This document shows, in pieces, positions 21,666-30,872 of a stretch of 64,000 bases of DNA (positions are counted from its first letter, which is position 1; each line of letters starts with the position of its first letter). Source of the stretch: Candidatus Melainabacteria bacterium. Lineage in GTDB: Bacteria; Cyanobacteriota; Vampirovibrionia; 2-02-FULL-35-15. Made by a program: the position numbers and the translations under genes. The notes under the pieces are model-generated. The model was not told where the DNA came from. It worked only from the letters and a program-made list of their open reading frames with translations, and made no database searches. The stretch is taken from the NCBI GenBank assembly GCA_016201905.1, contig JACQBQ010000014.1, positions 1 to 64,000 on the forward strand, in the 5' to 3' direction.

Positions 21666-22241
21666 ATGGAAATTAATATGAGCACAGCATTAATACCGAC
21701 AGAAACGATTGAAACAAAAATATTTTTTATACGTGGCAAAAAGGTGATGATTGATAAAGACTTAGCTGAACTTTATAAAGTTAAACCTATAGCTTTAAGG
21801 CAACAAGTTAAAAGAAATAAAGAGCGCTTCCCTGATGATTTTATGTTTCAACTTACAAGTGAAGAAGTGGAAAGCATGGTATCACAAAATGTGATACCTT
21901 CAAAACAAAGTCTGGGAGGGCATTTGCCTTATGCTTTTACAGAACAAGGTGTTGCAATGCTTTCTAGTGTACTTAACAGTACAAGAGCAGTAATGGTAAA
22001 TATTCAAATCATGCGTACATTTACTAAGCTTAGGGAAATGATTGAAACCCACAAAGATTTAAAACGAAAGATTGAGGATATGGAGAAAAAGTACGACAAG
22101 CAATTTCAAGTTGTGTTTGAAGCTCTAAAACATTTAATTGAACCAATTGAAAGACCTAAAAGAAAAGTCGGATTTTATGTAGCTGATGAAGAAATAAAAA
22201 GCCTGAAAAATTACAAAGGAATCAAGTTTTATGATGAATGA
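21666..22241 (+). CDS. ORF6N (KilA-N-like) domain DNA-binding protein
   Basis: A 191-aa protein with the ORF6N domain of phage antirepressors over about residues 10-100: FFIRGKKVMIDKDLAELY, then QQVKRNKERFPDDFMFQL and YAFTEQGVAMLSSVL. A coiled-coil (about 115-155) and a charged tail follow. Such proteins are common in prophages and mobile islands but also occur as isolated chromosomal genes. Its position next to the plasmid-like element marks the accessory region. DNA-binding and regulatory function are inferred from the family. Confidence 0.88.
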   Translation: MEINMSTALIPTETIETKIFFIRGKKVMIDKDLAELYKVKPIALRQQVKRNKERFPDDFMFQLTSEEVESMVSQNVIPSKQSLGGHLPYAFTEQGVAMLSSVLNSTRAVMVNIQIMRTFTKLREMIETHKDLKRKIEDMEKKYDKQFQVVFEALKHLIEPIERPKRKVGFYVADEEIKSLKNYKGIKFYDE

Positions 22242-22535: not shown

Positions 22536-23379
22536 ATGTATAATTTCAAAATCAAAAGTAAAAAGATATTTCCTTATTTATTGCTTTGCCTACACACTAT
22601 TTCAATAGTCTCACTGGTTTGCCTATACAACAACTATAACTATGAAGAAAGGTTATGTAATGCAATTGTTTCACAGGTAATCTCTGAAGGAATGACACAA
22701 AAACAAAAAGCACTTGCCCTATTACACATAGCTCACAAACTATTGCAGCCAAGAGCAGAGATTCTTGGCAATATCGATCCAAGTCAAGAACTTTTTGATA
22801 ACCGCTTACTAGAAGCAGGAAGTTGCGGCGATTTTACAAATGTTCTTGCAAGGCTTCTTCAAAAAGTAGGATTCAAAGTTAGAATTGCACAAATGCTACA
22901 CAAAGAACAAAAACAGAACAGAACAGAACAGAACAGAACAGAACAGAACAGAACAGAACAGAACAGAACAGAACAGAACAGAACAGATTGAAGCATGTCA
23001 TATTTTACTAGAAACACAAATAAGTGGCAAATGGGTAGTATTAGATCCTTCTTTGGATTTAGCTTTTGAAAAACCCGACGGCAGTTTAGCAAGCTTTGTT
23101 GAGGTAAAAAAAAATTGGGATTACTATAGTCGCCACTTACCTCCTGACTATTCTATAAATGATCTAAATTATGAAAATGTTAGATATACCAATTGGTCGA
23201 AATATCCTATAATTACGCCAGCCATTAAGTCAATCCTATCTTTTTTTATAGGAAAAAGAACTGATGAGATATGTTTATCAATGTACTTTTTGAATCAATA
23301 TCAAAACTGGTTGATAATGACTTTGTTATTTTATTTAATACTAGTAATTATTACTATTAGATTTTTACAAGCAAATTGA
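22536..23379 (+). pseudogene. Membrane transglutaminase-like protein, out of frame at a (GAACA)14 tract
   Basis: Frame one (22536-22991) encodes a membrane anchor (about residues 11-31) and the start of a transglutaminase-like core with the nucleophile C97 in GSCGDF, then runs into the repeat and stops at 22989. The other frame resumes immediately after the repeat with ACHILLE (catalytic His) and WVVLDP (catalytic Asp), and ends with a second membrane segment near the C-terminus. One more repeat unit (15) or two fewer (12) would join the halves into one protein of about 280 aa. It is thus a switched-off phase-variable gene or a recent frameshift. Its substrate is unknown. Confidence 0.8.
22916..22985 (+). 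repeat. Pentanucleotide tract (GAACA)14
   Basis: Fourteen perfect tandem GAACA units (70 bp) lie inside the transglutaminase-like gene, between the codons for the catalytic Cys and His. In any forward frame the tract encodes repeating EQNRT without a stop. Since 5 is not a multiple of 3, gain or loss of one unit changes the downstream frame: counts divisible by three restore the full protein. Confidence 0.97.
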
Positions 23380-24771: not shown

Positions 24772-24975
24772 ATGTACATGGTTGGCAAACTTTATAACAA
24801 CACAGCATTTTTAGAAAAGACTATAAAAGTATGGCAGCCGTACTCTGAAAAGCCACTGACTTTTGAGGACGCAAGAGAAATAATCCATAACACAGTTGGT
24901 GCCTACAAACTGCTAATTAAATGGGAAATGGAAAGACAGAAGAAAAGTAATGCTACAGGAGAAAAAGAAAAATGA
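24772..24975 (+). CDS. Small hypothetical protein of the element, 67 aa
   Basis: No family recognised. It is mostly helical with a lysine-rich tail. I chose the ATG at 24772; the frame extends to a GTG at 24754, which lies within the last iteron-like repeat. No ribosome-binding site is obvious. Its stop overlaps the start of the next gene as ATGA, so the two are coupled, which supports it being real. Confidence 0.5.
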   Translation: MYMVGKLYNNTAFLEKTIKVWQPYSEKPLTFEDAREIIHNTVGAYKLLIKWEMERQKKSNATGEKEK

Positions 24976-27446
24976 GTGAAGCATTTCAGGAAGGTATGAA
25001 AGAAGGAAAGATTCGGCAAGCTGATGAAAAGTTTAAGCCTGCACAATTAAAGGACTTTGAAAAGTCAGGACTAAGAGAAGAAACTGTTAGAAAAGCCGGC
25101 TACAGGTCACAAGAGGACGGCTGGGAAGTACCAATTACTAATCCAGATACTAAAGAAGCTTACTACTACAGAACAAGACTTGATAAACCGATAAAAACAA
25201 AAGATGCTAAAGGTAAGGAAAAAGAAATAAGATATTTAACTCCTGCTGGTTGTGAACCACACTTATATTTCAGCTTACAGACAGACAATTGGTCAGAGGT
25301 GTTTTCAATTCCTACAATTCCATTACTGCTTACAGAAGGTGAAAAGAAAGCAGATAAAGCAATTCAGGAAGGCTTTATTGCTGTTGCTGTATCAGGGGTA
25401 TGGTGTTGGTCAGAAAACCATGAACCAATAGATGACTTAAAACGCATTTGCACAAAGAACAGATTAATTCCTATTCTCTTTGATTCAGATTACAAAGATA
25501 AACCACAAGTACAAAAAGCAATTAAAAAACTTATGGAAGCTATAAAAAGCTTTGGTGCTATTCCTGTTGACTGTTCATTACCTGGACCAGAAAAAGGGTT
25601 AGATGACTTTCTCGTAGCAAGAGGCAAAGAAGCCCTGAAAAAACACATTCATGACTGTATTAAAGCATTTATTCCTTCTTATGAAAAAGAAAAATATTAT
25701 TTACAGGAAGCTATTAAATACTTATCCGGTGATGTTATAAGAAATAACTTTTTACCGGCAGTAAATAAAGCTGGCTTAGTAGGTGAAGAAAAAAATGCAG
25801 TAATCTGCTATGTAGCAGCTTGTTCAAGGTGCAGTAAGGATATGAATGGTTCACTACATGCTACGCTGCTTGGTCCTTCTGCTGGTGGAAAATCTTCAAT
25901 TGCTGAAAAAGTATGCGAACATTTTATAACCGAAAAATATTTTAAGGAACGGGCAAGTTTTACAGCAGCAGCATTTTATCGAGGTGAAGAAAACTCACTT
26001 AAATACAAATGTATTCTAATTTCAGAAGTTACGTACTTAGACCAGGAACAGGAAGATATTAGTGCATTACTCCGTACATTAAAAACAAGAGGTAAAGCAG
26101 AAAGAGAAGTAGTAACTAAAAAAGGTGGAGAACTTGTTACGGTAGTTTTAAAAGCTGAAGGTCCATGTAGCTTTATAGGTACGACTACTTCCTTTGCTGG
26201 CAAAGATGAAGATGTAAACAGAGATATTTTTACTGCACCAGATGATTCAATGGAACAAACACAAAGGATAAGGAGTATAAAAAATCAGAAGCTTATTAAA
26301 TATAATCCAGGACTAGATAAGTGGATACTGGAAAATAAAAATACTCAGGAAACGGTACAAGACCTGTTAATTAAACATATTCCTGTATTTGTTGAGATTC
26401 CTTATGCAAATAGAATTAACTATCCGGACAGAGAAGAACGGGCAAGGCGTGACGGTGACAAAATTGACAAAGCATTACAAGCTATTTCTCACATAAACAT
26501 GCTGAACCGAAAAATAAAGCTGCTTGACGCAAAGTCAATAATTGAAGATATTAAAAAGTTTGTACAAGAATACAATTTTAAAACTTTCGATTCACATGCT
26601 GTTCTTTCGATTCAAAACCTAGAATTAAGCCACGACTCTAAAGAAAAACAAACAATTAACAATCAAAACAACTGTACTTCTGAAGTTCAAGAATTAAAAG
26701 ATAATTACGAAGTTGTAGTCGGACTTGACGGAGAACACGTAGTAATTGACAGTCCGGATTCATTTTTAAATTACGGAATACTTGAGGAGTTTGCATACAG
26801 AAGGAAATATAATTTTGTTCTTGTATCTGATGAAAGAGACTTTAGCCTTTTACAGCAATACTTTGGACCTTCAATAGAAGCTTCTTATAACGAACTTGGT
26901 CATAACCTAACAAGATATTACAGGGTTCTTGTTAAAGAAGCTGAAAGAACTGATGACTACGAGTTTACCGCAAGTAGGTTTGCAAAGTTAGTAAAGCAGA
27001 GTGATACCTGGACAAGAAAAATATTAAACCAGCTTGCAGAAAAAGACTTTGCTGAATTACTTAATCCTGGCAAAAAACCTCTTAAGTTCAAAATAAATAA
27101 AAATAAATTATCTGATTCATTTGACACAGAACCAAACTTCAAAGAATACAGGCTTTATTTAAAAGAGCCAGGTGAAAATCCGGAACCTTGTTGTTTTGAT
27201 TCTGAATATTGCAGAATTACAAGGCAATTCTTTATAAAACCAAAGAATGAAATCAAAACAACTGAACTTAAATCCGAACTTCCGAATGTACCGATTGAAT
27301 CTGTAATGCAGCAGCAGGAGATTGCTAATAGCAAAGAATTGCACCTGGAAATAACTCAGCTTGGAGTTTTTAAACCTAGAATACCAGAACAAAGTTTGGT
27401 TGAGAAAGTGAGGGAAATAAATGTCGTTAAGCCAGTACAAAATTAA
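24972..27446 (+). CDS. DUF3854/Toprim-like domain fused to P-loop ATPase (replication-type protein)
   Basis: An 824-aa protein. The N-terminal third matches the DUF3854 pattern: LLTEGEKKADKA (E122) and ILFDSD (D171, D173) give the acidic Toprim-like triad, ending with LDDFLVARG (about 210-218). A second domain has a Walker A loop GPSAGGKSS at 301-309, with ILISEVTYLD further on as a possible Walker B. The last 200 residues are less conserved-looking and may bind DNA. Toprim plus P-loop suggests a primase/helicase-like role in plasmid replication, as in phage primase-helicases, but no helicase signature is certain. It overlaps both neighbouring genes. Confidence 0.75.
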   Translation: MSEAFQEGMKEGKIRQADEKFKPAQLKDFEKSGLREETVRKAGYRSQEDGWEVPITNPDTKEAYYYRTRLDKPIKTKDAKGKEKEIRYLTPAGCEPHLYFSLQTDNWSEVFSIPTIPLLLTEGEKKADKAIQEGFIAVAVSGVWCWSENHEPIDDLKRICTKNRLIPILFDSDYKDKPQVQKAIKKLMEAIKSFGAIPVDCSLPGPEKGLDDFLVARGKEALKKHIHDCIKAFIPSYEKEKYYLQEAIKYLSGDVIRNNFLPAVNKAGLVGEEKNAVICYVAACSRCSKDMNGSLHATLLGPSAGGKSSIAEKVCEHFITEKYFKERASFTAAAFYRGEENSLKYKCILISEVTYLDQEQEDISALLRTLKTRGKAEREVVTKKGGELVTVVLKAEGPCSFIGTTTSFAGKDEDVNRDIFTAPDDSMEQTQRIRSIKNQKLIKYNPGLDKWILENKNTQETVQDLLIKHIPVFVEIPYANRINYPDREERARRDGDKIDKALQAISHINMLNRKIKLLDAKSIIEDIKKFVQEYNFKTFDSHAVLSIQNLELSHDSKEKQTINNQNNCTSEVQELKDNYEVVVGLDGEHVVIDSPDSFLNYGILEEFAYRRKYNFVLVSDERDFSLLQQYFGPSIEASYNELGHNLTRYYRVLVKEAERTDDYEFTASRFAKLVKQSDTWTRKILNQLAEKDFAELLNPGKKPLKFKINKNKLSDSFDTEPNFKEYRLYLKEPGENPEPCCFDSEYCRITRQFFIKPKNEIKTTELKSELPNVPIESVMQQQEIANSKELHLEITQLGVFKPRIPEQSLVEKVREINVVKPVQN

Positions 27447-29110: not shown

Positions 29111-29302
29111 ATGAATGAATTAGAAGATAAAAAATTAATTAAAGTGAAAGAAGCTTCAGAGTTACTGGACATTAATCCAGCTACACTAAGACGCTGGGAT
29201 AAGCTAGGTAAGCTTCTGGCCAAAAGACACCCGATAAACAATTACAGGGTTTATAATGTAAAGGATATACAAGCTTTGAAGGAAAAAATAAATGCAAAAT
29301 AA
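29111..29302 (+). CDS. MerR/excisionase-type helix-turn-helix protein
   Basis: A 63-aa single-domain DNA-binding protein: IKVKEASELLDINPATLRR is the MerR-type helix-turn-helix, followed by WDKLGKL and the wing region NNYRVYN. The same domain forms the N-terminus of IS607-type serine transposases. Here it is a separate small gene overlapping the serine recombinase by 11 bp, so it could act as a directionality factor or as the recombinase's DNA-binding partner. A good AAGGAG site precedes the ATG. Confidence 0.85.
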   Translation: MNELEDKKLIKVKEASELLDINPATLRRWDKLGKLLAKRHPINNYRVYNVKDIQALKEKINAK

Positions 29303-30770
29303 AGCTGTGGCGTACGCAAGAGTTAGTTCAAGAGAACAGCAAGAGGAAGGTTTTAGTATACCTTCGCAATTGAAACTTGTAAGAGAATACGCTGATAAAA
29401 ATAAATTGAACCTTATAAAAGAGTTTGCTGAAGCTGAAACTGCAAAAAAGGCTGGCAGAACAGAGTTCAATAAAATGCTTTTATTCTTAAAAGAGAATCC
29501 TGATATAAAAATTGTTGTTGTAGAAAAGACCGACCGTCTTTATCGCAACTTCAAGGACTATATAATTTTGGAAGATTATGACCTTCAGATTCATTTAGTA
29601 AAAGAAAATCAAATACTAAGTAAAGATAGCAAGTCACATGAAAAGTTTATACATGGAATTAAAGTTTTAATGGCTAAAAATTACAGTGATAATCTGTCTG
29701 AAGAAGTAAAAAAAGGGAAGCAGGAAAAAGTTGAGCAAGGCGGTTACCCGTATATTGCACCGCTTGGTTATCAGAATACTGTAATTTCTGTCAATGATAA
29801 AAAGAAAGAAAATGGAATTGTACCTAAACCAGAGGAAGCAAGATTAGTCCGGGCTTTGTTTGAGCTTTATGCTACAGGGAATTATTCGCTTTTTACATTA
29901 CGTAAAAAAGTTATAGAAGAAGGATTAACTGCTTGTTTAAAAACTAAAAAAATACCTACAAGTTCAATTGCACGGGTGCTTCAATCACCGGTATATTACG
30001 GTGCTATTCCATACAAAGGGAAAATATATTCAGGCAACCATGAGCTGATTATAAGCAAAGAACTTTTTGATAAAGTGCAGGACATTTTAACTGGTAAAGG
30101 AAAGAAAAAAGGAAAAGCAAGAAGAAGTTTTCCTTATACAGGACTTATGGTTTGTGGGGGCTGTGGATTATCCATTACAGCAGAGAAGAAAAAAGGTAAA
30201 TATGTTTATTACCATTGCACAAATTACAAAAGAAATTGTAATAAAAAGAGTATTAAAGAAGAAAAAGTTGAAATTAAGTTTGCAGAATTGTTAAATGGAA
30301 TGCACATGGACGGTGAAAGATTGGAATGGCTTAAAGAAGGACTTAAATTAAGTCATGAAGAAGAAGCTGGTTACAGAGAAGAAATGATTGCTTCACTTGA
30401 AAGAGAATGTAAAACTATAAGAGAAAGAATTGACAAAGCTTATATTGATAAAATTGACGGGAAAATATCCGAAGCTTTTTGGTTACAAAATAATGAAAAG
30501 TGGGAGAAGCAGGAAATAGATTTAATAAAAGCTATCGAACTTCATAAAGAAGCAAATAAAAACTACATGAATGCAGGAATTACGCTGGTAGAAGCTGCAC
30601 AAAGAGCTTATAATAATTTTCTTGAAAGAAATGTTGAAGAAAAACGTGAACTTTTAGATTTCATGCTATCGAACTCAGTGCTAACAGGCCAAAACCTAGT
30701 CAGTACGCTGAAAGAACCATTTTCTTATTCTGCTGAATGTGTAAAAACTGGAAACATTCGGAGACGGTGA
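29292..30770 (+). CDS. Large serine recombinase (integrase of the element)
   Basis: A 492-aa site-specific recombinase. The N-terminal resolvase domain has YARVSSREQ with catalytic Ser at about S12; the 'recombinase' domain (about 155-270) follows, then a zinc-ribbon (CGGCG ... YYHC ... RNC, about 285-320) and a coiled-coil C-terminal region. Large serine recombinases integrate and excise phages and mobile islands at short attachment sites. The last four codons and the TGA stop coincide with the 3' end of tRNA-Ser, so the gene end lies across the element-chromosome junction. The length is complete. Confidence 0.95.
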   Translation: MQNKAVAYARVSSREQQEEGFSIPSQLKLVREYADKNKLNLIKEFAEAETAKKAGRTEFNKMLLFLKENPDIKIVVVEKTDRLYRNFKDYIILEDYDLQIHLVKENQILSKDSKSHEKFIHGIKVLMAKNYSDNLSEEVKKGKQEKVEQGGYPYIAPLGYQNTVISVNDKKKENGIVPKPEEARLVRALFELYATGNYSLFTLRKKVIEEGLTACLKTKKIPTSSIARVLQSPVYYGAIPYKGKIYSGNHELIISKELFDKVQDILTGKGKKKGKARRSFPYTGLMVCGGCGLSITAEKKKGKYVYYHCTNYKRNCNKKSIKEEKVEIKFAELLNGMHMDGERLEWLKEGLKLSHEEEAGYREEMIASLERECKTIRERIDKAYIDKIDGKISEAFWLQNNEKWEKQEIDLIKAIELHKEANKNYMNAGITLVEAAQRAYNNFLERNVEEKRELLDFMLSNSVLTGQNLVSTLKEPFSYSAECVKTGNIRRR

Positions 30771-30846
30771 GATTCGAACTCACGTGACAGTTGCCCGTCA
30801 AACTGATTTCGAGTCAGTCCCGTTACGACCACTTCGGTACGTCTCC
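30759..30846 (-). tRNA. tRNA-Ser (anticodon CGA)
   Basis: On the minus strand an 88-nt cloverleaf with a long variable arm forms: acceptor GGAGACG/CGTCTCC, anticodon loop CTCGAAA giving CGA, and T-arm AGTTCGAATCT. The 3' end overlaps the last 12 bp of the serine recombinase gene on the other strand, making this the likely integration target of the element to its left. Confidence 0.95.
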
Positions 30847-30872
30847 ATGGTATTTTATTGTAAACTATTACT

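Follow-up and report, generated by a model that had tools for sequence, protein, structure and literature searches.

A GAACA repeat between the two out-of-frame halves of a predicted membrane transglutaminase-like gene suggests phase variation in a Melainabacteria bacterium

The window analyzed here, a stretch of 64,000 nucleotides from a draft genome of a Candidatus Melainabacteria bacterium, carries on its forward strand a gene that is divided into two overlapping open reading frames by a perfect pentanucleotide repeat. ORF1 (22536..22991, +) begins with an ATG at 22536, encodes an N-terminal anchor and the half of the protein that holds the catalytic Cys, and in the assembled, OFF reading terminates at a TGA (22989-22991) directly past the tract. 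ORF2 (22885..23379, +) is open in frame +1 across the tract as far as the stop at 23377-23379 and encodes, after the tract, the catalytic His and Asp, an RYTNW motif and a C-terminal membrane segment. The two frames are out of register in the assembled 14-copy state and would be joined in one copy-number class modulo 3, as with 12, 15 or 18 copies; the frame arithmetic of a preliminary description of this DNA is thus borne out by the frames of ORF1 and ORF2. Codon log-odds derived from 30 further genes in the window were positive in both claimed frames (0.21 bits per codon in the N-terminal part, 0.13 in the C-terminal part), while every other frame scored -0.41 or lower and contained stops. 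Beyond the hinge formed by the tract, no further frameshift or stop was found in the gene. Separately, an A9 run at 23106-23114 in ORF2 (codons EVKKNW) is a possible second slippage site in the same gene.

The tract had been described as a perfect 70-bp (GAACA)14 array between the codon for the Cys and those for the His and Asp, and we located it there, at 22916-22985 (+). Read in the AACAG register, it comprises 15 perfect units (22912-22986, 75 bp), and TRF called it at 22912-22987 with 100% matches. Translation also bore out that it encodes the peptide EQNRT in all forward frames. In 100 dinucleotide-preserving shuffles, the window never gave a run of even four consecutive GAACA copies, and a scan of both strands found the array to be unique in the 2.28-Mb draft genome. 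The number of units lies far above the cut-off of five pentanucleotide units applied in published phase-variation screening (PMC6321876). A 356-kb sample of the genome that includes the window contained, besides the GAACA tract, a single other long perfect array, the heptamer (TAGCTTA)8, which is situated between convergent genes (L250:1559-1614, G000 contig 1) and is not a frame switch.

When the two frames were joined, the read-through protein passed the Pfam cut-off of 23 bits for Transglut_core (PF01841; E = 4.4e-5, 24.2 bits), a comparison that had been proposed as a check and came out in favor of the original assignment, whereas ORF1 alone remained below the cut-off (E = 0.013, 16.2 bits). 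The catalytic residues correspond to a TGC codon at 22824..22826 (+; C97) and a CAT codon at 22999..23001 (+; H137), both invariant in all 14 rows of an alignment with homologs, and a GAT codon at 23044..23046 (+; Asp152), conserved in 13 of the 14 rows. Translation further revealed an N-terminal hydrophobic segment (22569..22628, +) preceded by KIKSKK, in a layout shared with homologs, and a conserved C-terminal hydrophobic segment (23308..23367, +). Since basic residues precede the first membrane segment and, in homologs, follow the second, the orientation suggests that the catalytic domain faces the periplasm. Structural comparison was less informative: an AlphaFold2 single-sequence model reached a mean pLDDT of 42.6, too poor for a fold search, with a helix-strand order that fits a papain-like fold but too weakly to support one, and a PDB profile search gave nothing significant (best hit PeiW, E = 0.16). 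A Pfam scan returned no match to the BTLCP family model. Taken with the frames joined, the product is a well-supported member of the transglutaminase-like (PF01841) superfamily and a predicted enzyme.

Homologs of this protein were reached solely by sampling genomes of other phyla via their GAACA loci. The first, from a Chitinophagaceae MAG, shares 36% identity (E = 1.4e-34); a search of Bacteroidota then matched 4 of 396 genomes, two of them strongly, and within one Bacteroidota family 11 of 120 genomes gave strong profile scores. The 13 uninterrupted homologs collected, all from Bacteroidota genomes (L224-L226, L232-L241), align end to end with the window protein in the 14-row alignment and share with it the RYTNW-type motif and both terminal hydrophobic segments. 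They thereby back the earlier claim that joining the frames would yield a complete Cys-His-Asp set with a membrane segment at each end. Taken singly, 9 of the 14 rows match Transglut_core weakly, at E < 0.05. Within the aligned stretch, all 13 homologs are free of stops, frameshifts and multi-base tandem repeats; a T9 run was noted near the start in two of them. In a tree of the 14 sequences, the branching point of the window gene was not resolved. Closer to home, a search of 289 genomes of the same class with the joined protein found no relative, and a search of 194 genomes of that class with the family profile found no clear one. A peptide scan of a genome contig collection and direct protein searches of plasmids, phages and IMG/VR also yielded no relatives of the window protein. 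A multi-spanning membrane protein (L003) and other weak matches in the class were dismissed as chance; once the joined query or the profile is used, they disappear or remain weak.

The alignment also places the tract within the protein. Where this loop is cleanly readable, homologs have 8-10 residues between an RxxQM strand and the catalytic His, and the EQNRT repeats of the window protein occupy exactly this loop, in keeping with the preliminary description, which had the tract encode a loop. Because the homologs have a loop of this length here, the tract appears to have grown in a natural, tolerant hairpin just before the catalytic His. This position makes it plausible that the repeat would be tolerated as a loop in a hypothetically active ON form, although that form would be about 20-25 residues longer beside the active-site His, which could impair the enzyme.

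Most homologs adjoin genes for GT2/GT9/GT1 glycosyltransferases, AsnB-type amidotransferases, WcaJ-type sugar transferases, ABC exporters or MBOAT acyltransferases, and the context of most of them is an exopolysaccharide or capsule cluster. These Bacteroidota proteins thus resemble the window protein over nearly its full length, with the same two-anchor architecture and catalytic residues, but their genes have no tandem tract, keep the frame intact and lie mostly inside polysaccharide clusters. As a side observation, an AsnB-type amidotransferase gene is next to or near the transglutaminase-like gene in several Bacteroidota clusters (L230, L273, L274, L275, L276), and the two products may have an amidated sugar or linker as their common target.

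The surroundings of the window gene are of another kind. Its upstream neighbor is an ORF6N gene encoding a phage-type anti-repressor (21666..22241, +), and on its other side follows a block of genes of unknown type, a gene for a DUF3854 replication-type protein (24972-27446) and a large serine recombinase gene (29292..30770, +), the likely island integrase, whose end overlaps a tRNA-Ser(cga) (30758..30847, -). No polysaccharide cluster surrounds the gene within the window. The DUF3854 protein has relatives across the class, and contig 10 of the genome contains a second, partial match to it. The tRNA-Ser, which forms the island border, adjoins a KdsC-like gene, a pairing kept in eight relatives, and in one relative of the same family (G003) the interval between the Rieske gene and the tRNA-Ser lacks all of these genes and carries others instead. 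On this basis, the window gene is on a variable island. The island is probably an integrated element; a search for direct repeats as attachment sites gave no convincing pair, and its exact ends were not located.

Such a location raises the alternative that the gene is decaying cargo, inactivated recently when the tract expanded after arrival on the island, with no cycle between ON and OFF. The assembled copy is indeed out of frame, the class genomes searched hold no relative carrying the gene, its presumed polysaccharide partners are absent locally, and GAACA arrays also occur in non-coding DNA, one example being 16 copies upstream of a Nudix gene. Yet both halves have retained their codon usage, open frames and the near-invariant residues of the family without a second lesion, and a pentamer tract of 14-15 units is expected to be mutable, so that the change would be reversible by the same process that caused it. 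We therefore regard recent inactivation as unlikely.

The anatomy of the locus corresponds instead to what is used to recognize phase-variable genes: an in-ORF tandem repeat whose unit is not a multiple of three, present in at least five units; copy numbers of which some give a full-length frame and others a premature stop; and coding sequence preserved on both sides of the tract. From this anatomy, in a single assembly (a draft of 59 contigs), we infer the label phase-variable; a flank-specific search of IMG/VR for another allele found none. The reading we favor, and hold to be fairly probable, is that of a translational phase-variable contingency gene on a variable island, assembled in the OFF state and encoding an enzyme that faces the periplasm and has surface polysaccharide as its probable substrate.

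Two further explanations were considered. In the first, ribosomal or transcriptional frameshifting would produce full-length protein from the out-of-frame copy, or the halves would be made separately and assemble. A shift anywhere in the tract would be tolerable, given that the same peptide is encoded in three frames, and a TTG at 22885 could start ORF2. However, the required shift is +1, a -1 shift meets a stop, and the A5 run ahead of the tract does not form a canonical slippery heptamer; programmed frameshifting was judged unlikely. Promoter-like sites are not clearly above chance, and the homologs are single uninterrupted proteins. Overall, we consider this explanation very improbable. In the second, to which we give equally little credence, the assembled unit count stems from an assembly error or reflects a majority consensus, and in the organism the gene would normally be in frame. 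A perfect 75-bp repeat is a known weak point of draft assemblies such as this one, but typical reads are longer than this tract, and its flanks are joined cleanly inside a 139-kb contig; even under this explanation, a mutable hinge would remain at the locus.

Under the favored reading of a translational switch, slipped-strand mispairing in the GAACA tract would lead to the gain or loss of five-base units. One copy-number class in three would join the frames and give the full-length protein (ON), while in the other two classes, including the assembled 14 copies, translation would stop just after the tract (OFF), leaving a truncated product that has the Cys and lacks the His and Asp. The ON product would be a membrane-anchored enzyme of the transglutaminase/papain-like superfamily with a transmembrane segment at each end, its Cys-His-Asp domain predicted to face the periplasm and its EQNRT repeats forming an extended loop that immediately precedes the catalytic His. 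Given the exopolysaccharide and capsule clusters in which the homologs are encoded, its substrate would probably be a surface polysaccharide or a protein of the polysaccharide export machinery. Switching would then give part of the population a different surface coat. The switching itself, an active ON form, the membrane topology, the substrate and the resulting phenotype are all put forward here as predictions from the gene and its relatives.

The proposed mechanism resembles simple-sequence-repeat phase variation as known from type III mod phasevarions and the contingency genes of Haemophilus and Neisseria. These systems and the window gene share a non-triplet repeat inside the ORF, a premature stop when out of frame, a mid-gene position and enough units by published cut-offs. 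The targets differ: phase variation classically affects restriction-modification genes (PMC5149525), and repeat-switched products include methyltransferases, adhesins and glycosyltransferases, whereas the window gene encodes a predicted transglutaminase-like membrane enzyme. A near precedent for the repeat itself is the CACAG pentamer of the Pasteurella haemolytica mod gene, as cited in PMC6321876 and PMC5149525. On the side of the enzyme, the best-studied parallel is the HvyA protein of Caulobacter. In this exported transglutaminase-like protein, the Cys, His and Asp are important for keeping capsulation in check, and through this HvyA determines how sensitive the cells are to a phage (PMC4241560). 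HvyA and the window protein are alike in being exported (by prediction, for the latter) and transglutaminase-like with a Cys-His-Asp set, and HvyA affects surface polysaccharide and phage sensitivity. HvyA, however, is periplasmic with a signal sequence, belongs to the BTLCP (bacterial transglutaminase-like cysteine protease) family and is controlled through the cell cycle and proteolysis, whereas the window gene carries a DNA repeat and has no BTLCP match. By analogy, the window protein, though outside the family of HvyA, may work in a similar place. A bolder extension, which we offer only as a tentative possibility, is that the island is mobile and brings with it a periplasmic transglutaminase-like enzyme under phase variation, which would remodel the surface polysaccharide of the host at random and leave some of the cells with changed phage sensitivity or attachment. 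This would be the earliest case of repeat switching in this enzyme class, and from a lineage for which phase variation has hardly been described, if at all.

In line with the preliminary description, which knew of no such case, none of the open-access papers searched connects phase variation with a target of the transglutaminase-like kind. The mechanism is classic; the target family looks new for it. Repeat-based phase variation would extend to an enzyme class without cases described in those papers. The locus also brings to attention an uncharacterized family of membrane transglutaminase-like proteins in polysaccharide clusters.

The repeat unit itself occurs far beyond this genome. GAACA arrays of at least five units are present in many phyla and on viral contigs, and many of them are intergenic or in frame. 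The 16-copy array upstream of the Nudix gene, in class relative G069 (L066:1501-1580), shows that the repeat also grows outside coding hinges. Some arrays, by contrast with those that are intergenic or in frame, sit exactly between two out-of-frame halves of one gene. Frame hinges of this type were identified in a type III-like DNA methylase of Pelistega (L122), a type ISP enzyme of Altererythrobacter (L107, 22 copies), an HsdS gene (L191, 13 copies), a GT8 glycosyltransferase (L216) and a heptose-type kinase (L169), all from genomes unrelated to that of the window. With at least 120 codons required on each side, hinge placement was observed for 6 of 76 GAACA arrays in genomes, compared with 1.8% of random positions; on viral contigs, the hinge frequency was not above chance. 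The HsdS (L191) and type ISP (L107) genes have the same unit, the same EQNRT peptide and the same hinge layout as the window gene, with the difference that their products are DNA-modifying enzymes and the window product is a predicted envelope enzyme. The PADLOC HsdS profile (PDLC03126) independently matches the EQNRT tract of the window protein itself. We regard these hinges in restriction-modification and glycan genes as the strongest outside evidence that the window tract would be a switch and not mere debris. Since GAACA recurs as a frame hinge in such genes of unrelated bacteria, switches of this type can be mined directly. The hinge loci L107, L122, L191, L169, L216, L187 and L039, which include a viral cytosine methylase, are probable phase-variable loci judging by their layout. 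Finally, the Spirochaeta MAG LUC14_002_19_P3 bears GAACA arrays on at least seven contigs (L134, L140, L146, L151, L164, L173, L179), a possible multi-locus system.
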